Positions 9,637 to 48,358 of a stretch of 48,708 nucleotides of DNA are shown piece after piece. The notes below the pieces were generated by a model. It made no database searches and had not been told where the DNA came from. It worked only from the letters and a program-made list of their open reading frames with translations. The stretch covers positions 1 through 48,708 of the forward strand of contig JAJCYI010000066.1 in assembly GCA_029263015.1 (NCBI GenBank). Reading direction: 5' to 3'. The translations under genes were made by a program, and so were the position numbers. The DNA is from Saprospiraceae bacterium (GTDB lineage: Bacteria; Bacteroidota; Bacteroidia; Chitinophagales; Saprospiraceae). How positions within the stretch are numbered: position 1 is the first letter of the stretch; each line of letters starts with the position of its first letter.

Positions 9637-9696
9637 AAAATTGACAATCAATAATTTGTGAATTAAAATACTTTAAGCCTCTAAGAAAAAAATAAC

Positions 9697-9731
9697 AAAA
9701 AGCCCCTCGGGATATTCCCGAGGGGCTTTTT
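9697..9731. terminator. Bidirectional intrinsic terminator
   Basis: An 11-base-pair GC-rich stem, AGCCCCTCGGG (9701-9711) and CCCGAGGGGCT (9717-9727), has a 5-base loop and is flanked by A and T runs on both sides. It sits between the convergent GT2 and rhomboid genes and can serve both. Confidence 0.9.
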
Positions 9732-9734
9732 GTA

Positions 9735-15632: not shown

Positions 15633-16043
15633 TTATTTGGTTGGGTTGGATTTCAGGAAAATATTTTTCTTGAAAAAACGGTAATTGATGTTCCGCGCGG
15701 CTTTTTCGATCTCGTCGTAAGGCAAGTCCTCTTTAGCAGTATAGATGACCATAAACGAATACTGTCCGTCTGTTTTTTTCATTTTCTTATAAAGCCAGTT
15801 TTTGTTCAAGCGCCATGCCTCCCGTATCTTTCTTTTAATGCGGTTGCGGGCCACTGCCGATTTGAAATTCTTTTTGGGGACAGTAGCAGTGAACTGGATG
15901 GGGGCATCGCTTTTAGGTTCGTCCATTTTCAAAAAAACCAACCGCAGTGGGTAAGCTCCAAACGACTTTCCATCTTTGAACATCCGCCCAATTACCTTGC
16001 GGCTTTTTAGCCGTTCTGTTTTTTTGAAAGTGAATTTTTTCAT
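15633..16043 (-). CDS. rnpA: Ribonuclease P protein component
   Basis: 136 residues from the ATG at 16043; the frame stays open upstream to 16310, but that part overlaps the divergent fur-like gene and has no similarity to the family. Landmarks: the N-terminal FTFKKTERLKSRKVI, FTATVPKKNFKSAVARNR and the RNR signature in ARNRIKRKIREAWR, with a basic helix after it. It binds the RNase P RNA and helps mature tRNA 5' ends. The usual neighbour rpmH is not here; instead a small secreted-protein gene follows and a fur-like gene is divergent, sharing a 96-base promoter region. Confidence 0.95.
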   Translation of the reverse strand: MKKFTFKKTERLKSRKVIGRMFKDGKSFGAYPLRLVFLKMDEPKSDAPIQFTATVPKKNFKSAVARNRIKRKIREAWRLNKNWLYKKMKKTDGQYSFMVIYTAKEDLPYDEIEKAARNINYRFFKKNIFLKSNPTK

Positions 16044-16106: not shown

Positions 16107-16114
16107 TACATTTG
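16107..16114 (+). promoter_or_regulatory. Possible -7 element for the fur-like gene
   Basis: TACATTTG matches TAnnTTTG and lies 25 bases before the ATG at 16140. No TTTG is found 19-21 bases upstream. A 10-base direct repeat TGACTGAAAA (16120-16129 and 16141-16150) overlaps the start region and could be a regulator site. Confidence 0.3.
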
Positions 16115-16139: not shown

Positions 16140-16610
16140 ATGACTGAAAAAATTGAAGAAACCATTCAGGAAGTTAAAAAAATTTTCTCTTCCCACCTTG
16201 AGCAAAACGCTTTCCGAAAAACGCCGGAACGCTATGCTATTCTTGAGGAAATTTATCGGCGCAACGACCACTTCGACGCCGAAGCTTTGTATATACACAT
16301 GAAGAACCAAAGCTATCGCGTAAGCAGGGCTACAGTATATAACACGCTCGACCTACTGGTGAACTGTGATCTGGTGAAGCGACACCAGTTTGGTAAAAAC
16401 CTGGCACTCTATGAGAAGTCGTTTGGCTACAAACAACATGACCACCTCATTTGTGAAGATTGTGGTAAAGTTGTTGAATTTTGCGACCCCCGCATCCAGC
16501 AGATCAAAGACATGATGGGAGATTTGTTAAAATTCCAAGTTACCCACCATTCATTAAACCTTTTTGGCAAATGTGACGGCGCTTGCGAGCGCACTAAAAA
16601 TAAATCGTGA
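16140..16610 (+). CDS. Fur-family transcriptional regulator
   Basis: 156 residues from the ATG at 16140; an upstream TTG at 16119 would add seven residues that repeat the same sequence and is less likely. The winged-helix half has [14 protein letters not shown] and [16 protein letters not shown]. The metal-binding half has [16 protein letters not shown] with a CxxC zinc site and a late Cys (GKCDGAC). Members sense iron, zinc or peroxide; this protein has the HxHxxC-type element, but I cannot choose among Fur, Zur and PerR. It is divergent from rnpA and 109 bases upstream of purA. Confidence 0.9.
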
Positions 16611-16620
16611 TTAGTAATTA

Positions 16621-16719
16621 GTGATTAGAACATCAGTGGTTAGTGATATAGGGGGAAACCAATCACCAGTCACTAATCACCAGTCACTAACCACCAGTCA
16701 CTAACCACCAATCACTAAC
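16621..16719 (+). repeat. Tandem 14-base repeats and hairpin abutting purA
   Basis: Four 14-base units (CACCAGTCACTAAC type) run from 16664 to 16719 and end exactly at the purA ATG. Reverse-complement words lie upstream: GTGATTAG at 16621-16628 matches CTAATCAC at 16673-16680, and GTTAGTGAT at 16639-16647 matches ATCACTAAC at 16711-16719. The region can fold in several alternative ways, each ending at the start codon. Confidence 0.85.
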
Positions 16720-18006
16720 ATGGTAATAGACGTGATTCTCGGCCTCCAGTGGGGCGACGAAGGGAAAGGAAAGATTGTTGATTATTTGGCGACCCAATAC
16801 GACGTGGTGGCCCGCTTTCAAGGCGGCCCCAACGCTGGGCACACCTTAAAATTCGACGGACAAAAATTTGTTCTCCATACCGTTCCCTCTGGTATTTTCA
16901 GGAAAGAATTAATCAACCTCATTGGCAATGGTGTGGTCATTGACCCGATCACTTTGCGGCGGGAACTTGGTGGCTTGAGAGAAGCTGGAGTCGAATATGC
17001 TGACCGCTTGCTGGTGGCCAAGAAGGCTCACCTTATCGTACCTACCCACCGCTACCTCGATGCCGCTTCGGAAACAGCGAAAGGCCATGCGAAAATTGGT
17101 TCCACATTAAAAGGAATCGGACCAACGTATATGGACAAGACTGGCCGGAACGGCCTGCGTGTCGGTGATATTTTGCTGGAAGAATTTCAGGAGCGATACA
17201 ATACTTTAAAACAAAAGCATCTTGGTCTTTTGGCAGCATTGCCCAACATAGATTTTGATCTGGAAACAGAGGAGAAAAAATGGTTCGAAGCACTGGACTC
17301 TTTACGCTCCTTGAAAATGGTGGATGGTGAATATTTTATCAACCAGCAATTGGCCGAAGGCAAAAGGGTGTTGGCTGAAGGCGCACAGGGTTCCATGCTC
17401 GACATTGACTTTGGCACCTATCCATTTGTTACTTCCTCCAATACTGTGACTGCTGGCGTTTGCAACGGACTTGGTGTGGCACCTAAAAACATCGGAGAGG
17501 TCATTGGCATAACCAAAGCTTATTGCACCAGGGTCGGCAGTGGTCCCTTCCCGACAGAACTGTTTGATGAAGATGGTGAATTTTTAAGAAAAGAAGGACA
17601 GGAGTTTGGTGCTACGACTGGCCGCCCCCGCCGTTGTGGTTGGATAGATTTGCCACAGTTGAAATACACTATTATGCTGAACGGCGTCACCCAGCTGGTC
17701 ATCACAAAAATTGATGTTTTAAATAAATTTGAAAAAATAAAAGCGGCTACCAAATATCGTTACGACGGCCAGGTCACGGATCGTTTGCCATACGATTTAT
17801 GCGGAGTGCCTGTAGAACCGTTGTACAAGTCGTACCCAGGTTGGAAACAAGCACTGGATGGGGTTATGGATTATGACGACTTGCCCGTAAATGCCAAAGC
17901 TTACCTTGCCACTTTGGAGCACCATTTAGGCGTTCCCATTACGATGGTTTCAACAGGGCCTGAGCGAAAGAGTTTGATTTTGAAAGGAGTGGAAGCGACT
18001 GTTTGA
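16720..18006 (+). CDS. purA: Adenylosuccinate synthetase
   Basis: 428 residues, the normal length. It joins IMP and aspartate using GTP to make adenylosuccinate, the first step of AMP synthesis, in the cytoplasm. Motifs: the GLQWGDEGKGKIVD loop with catalytic Asp, FQGGPNAGHT with catalytic His, IGSTLKGIGP, EGAQGSMLDIDFGTYP, TSSNT, GVCNGLG, TGRPRRCGW and the GTP-binding ITKIDVL. Nothing essential is missing. The start codon is fixed by the conserved N-terminus and lies directly after the 14-base tandem repeats, with no Shine-Dalgarno sequence. The repeats may control its translation. Confidence 0.97.
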   Translation: MVIDVILGLQWGDEGKGKIVDYLATQYDVVARFQGGPNAGHTLKFDGQKFVLHTVPSGIFRKELINLIGNGVVIDPITLRRELGGLREAGVEYADRLLVAKKAHLIVPTHRYLDAASETAKGHAKIGSTLKGIGPTYMDKTGRNGLRVGDILLEEFQERYNTLKQKHLGLLAALPNIDFDLETEEKKWFEALDSLRSLKMVDGEYFINQQLAEGKRVLAEGAQGSMLDIDFGTYPFVTSSNTVTAGVCNGLGVAPKNIGEVIGITKAYCTRVGSGPFPTELFDEDGEFLRKEGQEFGATTGRPRRCGWIDLPQLKYTIMLNGVTQLVITKIDVLNKFEKIKAATKYRYDGQVTDRLPYDLCGVPVEPLYKSYPGWKQALDGVMDYDDLPVNAKAYLATLEHHLGVPITMVSTGPERKSLILKGVEATV

Positions 18007-21719: not shown

Positions 21720-21748
21720 CGGTTTACTTTTGGAACGGGATAGAAATG

Positions 21749-21788
21749 AAAAGAGCCTTGCTGTGACAACTCACAGCAAGGCTCTTTT
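21749..21788. terminator. Strong bidirectional intrinsic terminator
   Basis: A perfect 18-base inverted repeat (21749-21766 and 21771-21788) has loop CAAC, a GAGCCTTGCTGTGA core and A/T ends. It lies between prfC and the opposing 41-residue protein gene and can end transcripts from both sides. Confidence 0.92.
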
Positions 21789-21806
21789 AAAAATGGTTTT
21801 GATTGG

Positions 21807-21970: not shown

Positions 21971-22002
21971 CAAAAGTACATTGTGACTTATTAGTTTCCA
22001 AA
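21971..22002 (-). promoter_or_regulatory. Promoter of the 41-residue membrane protein gene
   Basis: On the minus strand: TTTG (22002-21999), a 20-base spacer, TACTTTTG (21978-21971). This matches the Bacteroidota consensus fully. Transcription should start near 21965, about 33 bases before the ATG. Confidence 0.62.
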
Positions 22003-22045
22003 TTCTGACCTTTTTCAAAATTGGTCTAAACAAATAGGGTAATCG

Positions 22046-22089
22046 GAAGTTGTACTTCCCGAACAGCCGCCCCCCAGAAGTACAAGTTC
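22046..22089 (+). promoter_or_regulatory. Inverted repeat upstream of dtd
   Basis: GAAGTTGTACTTC (22046-22058) and GAAGTACAAGTTC (22077-22089) pair at 12 of 13 positions around an 18-base C-rich loop. It lies 35 bases before the dtd start. It may be a regulator site or an RNA hairpin in the leader. Confidence 0.45.
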
Positions 22090-22124
22090 TCGTTACAACA
22101 AAACATAGGATAAAAATCAATACC

Positions 22125-27582: not shown

Positions 27583-27632
27583 AATGAGTGAATGGATATT
27601 CTATAATTTACCCATTCTATCATTCACTCATT
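27583..27632 (-). repeat. Inverted word repeat between M48 and channel genes
   Basis: AATGAGTGAATG (27583-27594) and CATTCACTCATT (27621-27632) are perfect 12-base reverse complements. They fill the 82-base gap from the M48 stop to the channel start, so the hairpin follows one gene and its second arm belongs to the leader of the next. Related words (GATTGAATGG, TCAATGAT) lie at 27562-27580. Confidence 0.75.
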
Positions 27633-45245: not shown

Positions 45246-45253
45246 TTTTTATA

Positions 45254-45291
45254 AAAAAAGGGTTGAACGGAATTCCGTTCAACCCTTTTTT
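45254..45291. terminator. Perfect palindromic bidirectional terminator
   Basis: A 38-base perfect palindrome centred at 45272/45273 (AAAAAAGGGTTGAACGGAA and its complement) with A and T runs at both ends. It separates the convergent Spy-like and SGNH lipoprotein genes. Confidence 0.93.
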
Positions 45292-45308
45292 ACTTTACTT
45301 TTCCTCCT

Positions 45309-46224: not shown

Positions 46225-46328
46225 CCAATAGGCGGAGAAAATAAAACAGGATGGTTTTAACATGTATTTGGCGATACTTTTTACATTGTCCTTTTTACTT
46301 TTTCCTTTAAACCAACCACTCAATTTTT

Positions 46329-47885: not shown

Positions 47886-47965
47886 TTTTGAGTTGGGGAG
47901 TTTTGAGTTTTGGGTGACGCTACTCAATAATTCAAAACGCTCCAACTCATAACTCAAAACTCCCC
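47885..47965 (+). repeat. Inverted word repeat between porX and the SET gene
   Basis: GGGGAGTTTTGAGTT (47895-47909) and AACTCAAAACTCCCC (47951-47965) are perfect 15-base reverse complements, and more distant GTTTTGAGTT and CTCCAACTCA copies extend the pairing. The second arm ends exactly at the ATG (47966) of the next gene, as at purA. Confidence 0.85.
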
Positions 47966-48358
47966 ATGCAGCGCATCCCCTCCCTTTTCATAGCTCCCAG
48001 CGACTTAGGTGGTCGGGGCGTTTTTACTGGCGAACCAATCGAAGAAGGAGCGTTGATTGAAATTTGTCCGGTCATTGTTTTGCCGGAAAATGAATTGGAG
48101 GTAATCCACGGCACGTTCTTGCACGATTATTATTTCCTATGGGGCGATGAGCAAAAAGAATGTGCCATCGCACTAGGGAATGGCTCGCTCTACAATCATT
48201 CTTATCAGCCCAATGCCCGTTACCTTTTGGATTATGAGCATAATACGATTGATTTTTATGGTATTAAAAACATCGAAGCTGGCGAAGAGATTTTGGTGAA
48301 TTATAATGGAGAGCCGCATTTGCAGGGACGGGTTTGGTTTGATGGGGGGAAACGGTGA
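47966..48358 (+). CDS. SET-domain protein
   Basis: 130 residues. SET-fold signs: DLGGRGVFTGEPIEEGALIE (GxG start), LYNHSYQPNARY (the NHS...PN motif) and FYGIKNIEAGEEILVNYNG (GEE...NY end). It should bind SAM and transfer a methyl group to a protein lysine; bacterial targets are rarely known. The start codon touches the last base of a 15-base hairpin arm, with no Shine-Dalgarno sequence. It may be co-transcribed with porX, 80 bases upstream, but any functional link is only a guess. Confidence 0.88.
   Translation: MQRIPSLFIAPSDLGGRGVFTGEPIEEGALIEICPVIVLPENELEVIHGTFLHDYYFLWGDEQKECAIALGNGSLYNHSYQPNARYLLDYEHNTIDFYGIKNIEAGEEILVNYNGEPHLQGRVWFDGGKR

Follow-up and report, generated by a model that had tools for sequence, protein, structure and literature searches.

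Intergenic gaps in a genus of Saprospiraceae carry tandem arrays of short units that often face a complementary array in the same gap, with the G-rich array on the left and the C-rich array on the right, independently of the direction of the flanking genes and with words that differ or are only partly alike among species at the same gap. One such pair lies between a fur-like gene and purA in the window, the whole stretch of 48,708 nucleotides that was analyzed, and these repeats point to a DNA-copying habit of the genus more than to a purA switch. We tentatively favor the explanation that facing short-unit arrays come to fill intergenic gaps by slippage together with snap-back template switching, and that the fur-purA hairpin would be a tolerated by-product, a view that we draw from comparing sequences.

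Facing arrays between fur and purA

In G000, the genome of the window, the fur-purA gap is 109 nt long and the purA ATG begins at 16720 (Table 1). The initial annotation had described four 14-base units ending at the base before this ATG, complementary words after the fur-like gene, a leader nearly free of G, and a recurrence of the layout at two further sites with different sequence, all of which were borne out. TRF finds 4.0 copies of the 14-nt unit CACCAGTCACTAAC at 16664-16719 (95% matches, score 98), the complementary words at 16607-16628 and 16636-16646 lie behind and partly inside the stop codon, the C-rich array has 3 G in 59 bases, and inverted repeats of other sequence are found at 27583-27632 and 47894-47966. 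The unit CACCAGTCACTAAC is itself 2 x 7 nt, making the array eight 7-nt units whose last base directly precedes the ATG, and 16658-16715 is also called with period 7 (TRF, 68% matches). When 16601-16719 was shuffled 500 times with its dinucleotides preserved, none of the shuffles reached the tandem score of 39 and 2 matched the inverted-repeat score of 11. The predicted RNA fold of 16595-16735 has -35.9 kcal/mol (z -3.6), which was equaled by 0 of 200 shuffles.

Table 1. Positions of genes, arms, and arrays in the window
Feature	Position	Strand	Evidence and remarks
TAnnTTTG promoter-like motif TACATTTG	16107-16114	+	Motif scan; upstream of Fur-like gene
Fur/PerR-family regulator gene, upstream cistron	16140-16610	+	ORF call, profile match; stop TGA 16608-16610
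G-rich 5' arm	16607-16646	+	Inverted-repeat search, fold; 16607-16628 GTGATTAGTAATTAGTGATTAG plus 16636-16646 GTGGTTAGTGA; starts inside stop codon
Stretch separating the two blocks	16647-16657	+	Contributes to the loop in one of several pairing registers
C-rich, nearly G-free 3' arm	16658-16719	+	TRF, inverted-repeat search, composition
purA, adenylosuccinate synthase	16720-18006	+	NCBIfam NF002223 E 2.6e-166, TIGR00184 E 1.4e-150
Second instance	27583-27632	.	Arms 27583-27594 (AATGAGTGAATG) and 27621-27632 (CATTCACTCATT); inverted-repeat score 12; polarity as fur-purA
14-nt tandem array (CTTTTTACATTGTC)	46277-46308	.	Divergent gap; C-rich, close to right gene; best inverted repeat of the gap only score 9
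Third instance	47894-47966	.	Arms 47894-47909 and 47951-47966; score 16; polarity as fur-purA; right arm enters ATG of 47966 ORF

The purA ORF lies above two NCBIfam cut-offs (best E 2.6e-166), and the upstream ORF is Fur/PerR-like with a best E of 4.3e-23, a match under all listed cut-offs. TAnnTTTG is the -7 promoter element of Bacteroidota. A match to it stands before the Fur-like gene, and TACCTTTG precedes fur, by eye, in G008, G011, G012, and G002; with 4 matches against 3.0 expected in the scanned stretch, the motif is not rarer than chance and is weak alone. The motif scan of the fur-purA gap gave neither a sigma-70-promoter-like match nor a TAnnTTTG match. Since TAnnTTTG stands before fur and is absent from the fur-purA gap, the two genes are likely co-transcribed as a bicistronic mRNA. 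A test of 16611-16719 for Rho-independent terminators found no short-loop stem with a T run, and a search of the window at Rfam gathering scores returned 0 matches. An RnpA-like gene (15633-16043, minus strand; Pfam Ribonuclease_P, E 2.1e-18) is divergent from the Fur-like gene.

Counting G000 itself, 37 of 40 genomes had a fur match in a protein search; G013, with a partial fur match only, was left out of the gap comparison, and purA of G002 was not found at the locus. The layout is present in five of the eight insert-free genus genomes (G000, G001, G004, G008, and G012), where the array-bearing gaps measure 63-109 nt and are nearly filled by arrays. Their units are 7-nt in G001 and 8-nt in G004, G008, and G012, and the words differ from, or are partly like, those of G000. 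In G003, G005, and G010 the gap is 51-56 nt long without paired arrays or a hairpin, and purA of these genomes matched over residues 1-422 of 428. Inserts of 612-620 nt (G007, G009, and G011) or 251 nt (G006) occupy the gap in four genomes. These inserts are toxin-antitoxin like (stretches L016, L017, and L013 of G011, G007, and G009, and L018 of G006), and the one in G007 has a PIN-domain gene (Pfam E 9.4e-13, with Pfam run on the G007 protein alone).

In a tree of Fur and PurA, G000 has as its sister (100/98) G010, a genome without the hairpin, and G001 with its 7-mer and G004 with its 8-mer are sisters at modest support (81/86), the unit being matched in both arms of each. The five fur-purA arrays are mutually more alike than random same-genome arrays (mean 0.40 vs 0.24, p 0.006), by which their full independence is partly rejected. 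The likeness is found mainly within {G000, G001} and {G004, G008, G012} and does not extend from the 7-mer group to the 8-mer group; only 3 of 10 array pairs rank within the top 3% of the null. An old array with its word rewritten in both arms and repeated new origins both fit these data. An erosion of the Fur C terminus by the array is only suggestive, Fur of G012 being longer by two or three residues.

The convergent gap G000:C198:78963-79080 has counterparts in G001:C110, G004:C41, and G012:C246 with short inverted repeats (scores 13, 9, and 13), which include the stop and last codons of both genes and are species-specific in sequence.

Abundance, pairing, and polarity in the genus

In stretches of 13 genus genomes, tandem arrays (period 5-18) were found in 141 of 847 gaps, with genes called by a home-made hexamer script; 61 have period 7, 23 have period 8, and 32 have period 14 or 16. 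The arrays per gaps are 46/248 in G000, 22/181 in G008, 9/101 in G004, 17/51 in G012, and 47/266 in nine others, or, by gap class, 97/576 co-directional (0.168), 25/127 convergent (0.197), and 19/144 divergent (0.132), and these rates are biased in that six G000 contigs were chosen for matches to the fur-purA gap, several relatives' stretches for matching an array-rich stretch, and G008:C56 and G004:C34 for fur. In 408 kb of G000 (the window plus 20 stretches; gaps of 25-600 nt, tandem score at least 12), arrays occupy 45 of 242 gaps where 0.4 were expected, 28 with period 7 and 5 with period 14; periods 8 and 16 lead in G008 (14 of 22 arrays). Inverted repeats scoring at least 12 occur in 64 of 198 G000 gaps shorter than ~330 nt vs 2 of 396 shuffles; ordinary terminators and dispersed palindromes contribute to this count.

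Ordinary short-loop terminator-like hairpins stand between convergent genes beside the array class (window 9637-9734, 21720-21806, and 45246-45308). Several G000 gaps share a dispersed palindrome of the GAAGTTGTACTTC type (window 22002-22124; L172 9748-9892; L162 7511-7973), and the palindromes AAATGTCGG..CCGACATTT and CCCCAACATGCTC, perhaps MITE-like, recur between genes (L163 16871-17281; L173 12077-12317; L176 1905-2349; L178 6246-6375; L169 16287-16694).

The units are diverse: in the genus, the 78 period-7 arrays comprise 48 distinct units and the 47 period-8 arrays 37. More than ten were seen by eye in G000, where three of them, AATTGAG (7), AAAAAGT (5), and AGTGATT (4), make up 16 arrays. 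The G strand is without any C in 82 of 125 period-7/8 units. We rejected a stop codon in every frame as the cause of 7/8-nt units, as a stop is present in 0.728 of units vs 0.680 of letter-shuffled ones, a level so near that composition explains the stops.

A complementary partner array, defined by at least 12 of 14 complementary bases, stands in the same gap for 76 of the 141 arrays, where shuffled flanks gave an expectation of 4.5 and DNA of other gaps one of 3; the other 65 are without a partner at that limit. Polarity within the genus is very consistent and independent of gene direction, as 70 of 72 skew-clear pairs have the G-rich array on the left and the C-rich array on the right (4 further pairs are without clear skew). 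The ratio of G-left to C-left pairs is 45:1 in co-directional, 15:1 in convergent, and 10:0 in divergent gaps, both exceptions being in G000. Looser inverted-repeat counts, in which repeats outside arrays were admitted, gave 42:2 in G000, 33:5 in G008, and 13:2 in G004 (with 51, 17, and 11 neutral) and 49:8 in eight further genus genomes.

Both arrays lie near gene edges with a middle part between them, and the G-rich one consists mostly of G, T, and A. In co-directional, convergent, and divergent gaps, respectively, G arrays have a median distance of 4, 8, and 22 nt to the left gene, which is the nearer gene in 37/40, 11/12, and 7/10 cases, and C arrays have a median distance of 11, 0, and 12 nt to the right gene, which is nearer or equally near in 41/49, 10/12, and 8/9.

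The G-left/C-right order is invariant under reverse complement and is thus not an orientation toward transcription, and since polarity holds where the start or the stop codon is absent, neither codon constraint alone explains the rule. Array-free gaps have skews in their first/last 25 nt of +0.08/-0.31 (co-directional), +0.14/-0.11 (convergent), and +0.28/-0.27 (divergent) and are already G-poor at the right edge, so that seed composition may account for part of the polarity; this background is weakest in convergent gaps, and the rule still holds there.

Beyond the genus, arrays occupied 10 of 98 gaps (periods 8 and 21 four times each, 10 and 19 once each) in short stretches from nine further genomes of the family, and 2 of 100, one being an N run, in those from seven genomes of other families in the order. 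Skew-clear inverted repeats with a score of at least 12 in the stretches of these 16 genomes were 2 G-left vs 4 C-left, with three of the four C-left in G019, a count that does not support the polarity rule as general in the order and is too small to judge it. A scan for (TCACTAA)3 gave at least 120 loci, which are not independent, since some share a genome; the taxa among the matches listed are mostly Bacteroidota, and also Cyanobacteria, Clostridia, Planctomycetes, and others. An opposite array lies within 300 nt at 9 of the 120 listed loci, all 9 G-left. Of these 120 loci, 91 were usable for comparing ORF distances along the G strand: its 5' neighbor is the closer ORF at 56, and its 3' neighbor is closer or equally close at 35, a bias weaker than that in the genus.

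Origin of the arrays

Slippage covers the tandem part of the layout, and arm-to-arm copying needs either a template switch or selection on pairing. In the explanation that we favor, replication slippage would lengthen or shorten each array by ~7 or 8 nt per step, and the nascent strand would occasionally snap back onto a G-rich segment lying 5' in the same strand and copy it in a quasi-palindrome template switch. Such a snap-back copy would create or correct the opposite arm, so that the arms stay complementary while the word drifts. Fold-back places the copy 3' of the copied segment, and a preference for G-rich nascent segments would thus yield the observed order, G-left and C-right on both strands. 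The probable fur-purA bicistronic mRNA would then contain a large intercistronic hairpin as a tolerated by-product, with no dedicated purA switch.

Comparing one genome per species, we found 30 orthologous gap pairs that were both positive vs 17.8 in permutations (p 0.02), and no excess of shared presence by orthogroup (10 vs 11.1, p 0.80). At one gap, which precedes an ORF that begins with atgaaattc, a hairpin was called in 5 of 6 species; the sixth retains an eroded copy, and by eye the words are of two kinds. The orthologue data are compatible with arrays being made and rewritten by mutation, any selection being local at most; selection would also predict the presence correlation by pairs and the gap positive in 5 of 6 species.

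The main rival, which we hold to be somewhat unlikely, is an RNA hairpin under selection on transcripts of either strand, acting possibly as a 3'-end stabilizer, a processing or Rho barrier, or a cistron insulator, for which pairing would matter and the word would be free. It is consistent with the strong predicted fold of the fur-purA leader, with arms that adjoin stop and start codons, with predicted 180-nt minimum free energies of -45 to -81 in the five hairpin genomes vs -27 to -44 in the three without, with an ATG predicted to be more accessible in 4 of 5 hairpin genomes, and with the presence that orthologous pairs share slightly above chance, including the gap positive in 5 of 6 species. 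However, polarity is identical in divergent gaps, which show no clear avoidance, shared presence by orthogroup is not in excess, nearly half of the arrays (65/141) are partnerless at 12/14, and relatives have retained purA without the hairpin.

Improbable in our view is an origin as scars of double-strand-break repair, in which both 3' ends would gain the same G-rich repeats and then be joined, with the old spacer replaced, even though this would explain the polarity, the single unit in both arms, and arms flush with the genes. A replaced spacer would also suit array gaps that are nearly array-filled at 63-109 nt vs array-free ones of 51-56 nt. A Ku gene was found in 0 of 14 genus genomes (5 of the 40 searched have Ku), which makes Ku-based end joining unlikely, and we rejected this form of the idea. 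Moreover, the likeness of the fur-purA arrays suggests drift of an old array, and we know of no enzyme that adds heptamers.

We likewise give little credence to a mobile element, REP- or MITE-like, that inserted at gene edges. The three units named above do recur in G000, and many short array matches lie on other contigs of relatives, but the arrays have no fixed sequence, as their unit diversity shows. The exact TTAGTGA hairpin pattern occurs at 2 places in G000, both G-left and 0 C-left, and, in either polarity, in 0 of 394 other Bacteroidota genomes; this absence indicates that the exact pattern is too narrow a query.

A translational switch dedicated to purA, with alternative pairings that would hide or expose the ATG as the initial annotation proposed, is very unlikely. 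The array does stop at the base before the ATG, several pairing registers are possible, and the predicted unpaired probability of the ATG is only 0.16 in G000; however, this value is 0.53-0.70 in the other four hairpin species and 0.36-0.39 in the three hairpin-free ones, a prediction that shows no consistent hiding. In addition, G010, G003, and G005 keep purA behind a short gap without pairing, an outcome that the initial annotation had itself named as refuting its reading; G006, G007, G009, and G011 have other inserts there, and the window is without an Rfam match. As the layout is found genome-wide in co-directional, convergent, and divergent gaps, it is bound neither to start codons nor specifically to purA. 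What stands of the earlier reading is the layout, its recurrence with different sequence, and a strong predicted hairpin, and the purA-specific switch is not supported.

There is a slim chance that the genus has a dedicated end-extension activity, telomerase-like or templated in some other way, that extends both 3' ends of intergenic breaks with short G-strand repeats and joins them, the gaps then recording repair with the unit chosen anew each time; if so, the facing of repeats in Xanthomonas and at the nine G-left loci of various taxa would mark a process more widespread among bacteria. Regulatory repeats that form G-quadruplexes, the proposal made for Xanthomonas and Nostoc, are least probable: facing and ORF nearness on the G-strand 5' side match the available text on those repeats (PMC4692102), but a three-tetrad motif in only 2/141 arrays and a two-tetrad motif in 33/141 weaken them as a general cause.

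Relation to known repeats

The closest likeness is to the intergenic heptamer repeats GGGAATC of Xanthomonas and GGGGA(C/T)T of Nostoc (Rehm et al. 2015, PMC4692102). According to the available text of that paper, two Xanthomonas species have 70 and 75 close pairs "in convergent orientation," which we take here as G strands face to face, and the Xanthomonas repeats lie closer to the 5'-side ORF whatever its direction, some of them overlapping stop codons. In the same text, the repeats are mostly retained between the same genes with varying length and sequence, divergent gaps are under-represented, paired repeats are few in Nostoc, and quadruplexes are the main idea, with a function not found. 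Our arrays share the 7-nt intergenic units, the facing pairs, and a G strand closer to the 5' ORF; whereas that text describes one quadruplex-capable unit type per genome, the genus studied here has many 7/8-nt units, with a partner for 76/141 arrays. The arrays do not fit the GGGNATC unit or its quadruplex motif, as the window unit is CACCAGTCACTAAC and the three-tetrad motif is as rare as given above.

TAACTGA direct repeats of Beggiatoaceae, Cyanobacteria, and some Bacteroidetes (MacGregor 2015, PMC4679880) are, in the available text, located just 5' of start codons where canonical ribosome sites are rare, and they show 7-nt-step indels between two close strains. Heptamers directly upstream of a start codon are common to both systems, but the TAACTGA system has, as far as that text goes, a single unit and one indirect repeat vs 169 direct sets in its main genome, from which our arrays differ. 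The window unit is not TAACTGA, and the units that occur at least twice do not include it.

The STRR of cyanobacteria are heptanucleotide tandem repeats with one or few units per genome. Like these and the long simple sequence repeats (LSSR), the arrays of G000 are 7-nt tandem units in intergenic DNA beyond chance. Polymerase slippage was proposed for the heptamer-rich LSSR of Mrazek et al. 2007 (as described in the available text of PMC4679880). The descriptions of STRR and LSSR at hand do not include facing pairs of fixed polarity, which the genus arrays have. Template switching at quasi-palindromes in yeast raises arm identity in imperfect inverted repeats (PMC3820800), and the available text has nothing on tandem arrays kept complementary genome-wide.

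Rho-independent terminators likewise place a hairpin after the stop codon, and the array class differs in that it is also found in divergent gaps. REP/REPIN elements are linked to a RAYT transposase gene. They are a conserved palindrome copied genome-wide, and our arrays differ from them in that the units vary among loci. A literature search limited to open-access papers, with subscription papers outside it, found no description of many-unit facing arrays in Bacteroidota, and the word Bacteroidota is absent from the available text of a 2026 survey of perfect inverted repeats (PMC13155455).

Our findings indicate that an orientation rule of the Xanthomonas type needs no quadruplex-forming units, since it holds in this genus for dozens of 7-8-nt words, at start and stop edges alike. 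The question moves from regulation by the repeat to the process that writes G-first, C-second arrays, and why it does so in 7s and 8s, and with arrays in ~1/6 of sampled gaps the genus is well suited to catching this process in strain comparisons or mutation-accumulation lines. The findings also caution against calling such hairpins riboswitches or terminators. The larger pattern is a variant of the heptamer repeats with a very consistent polarity within the genus.
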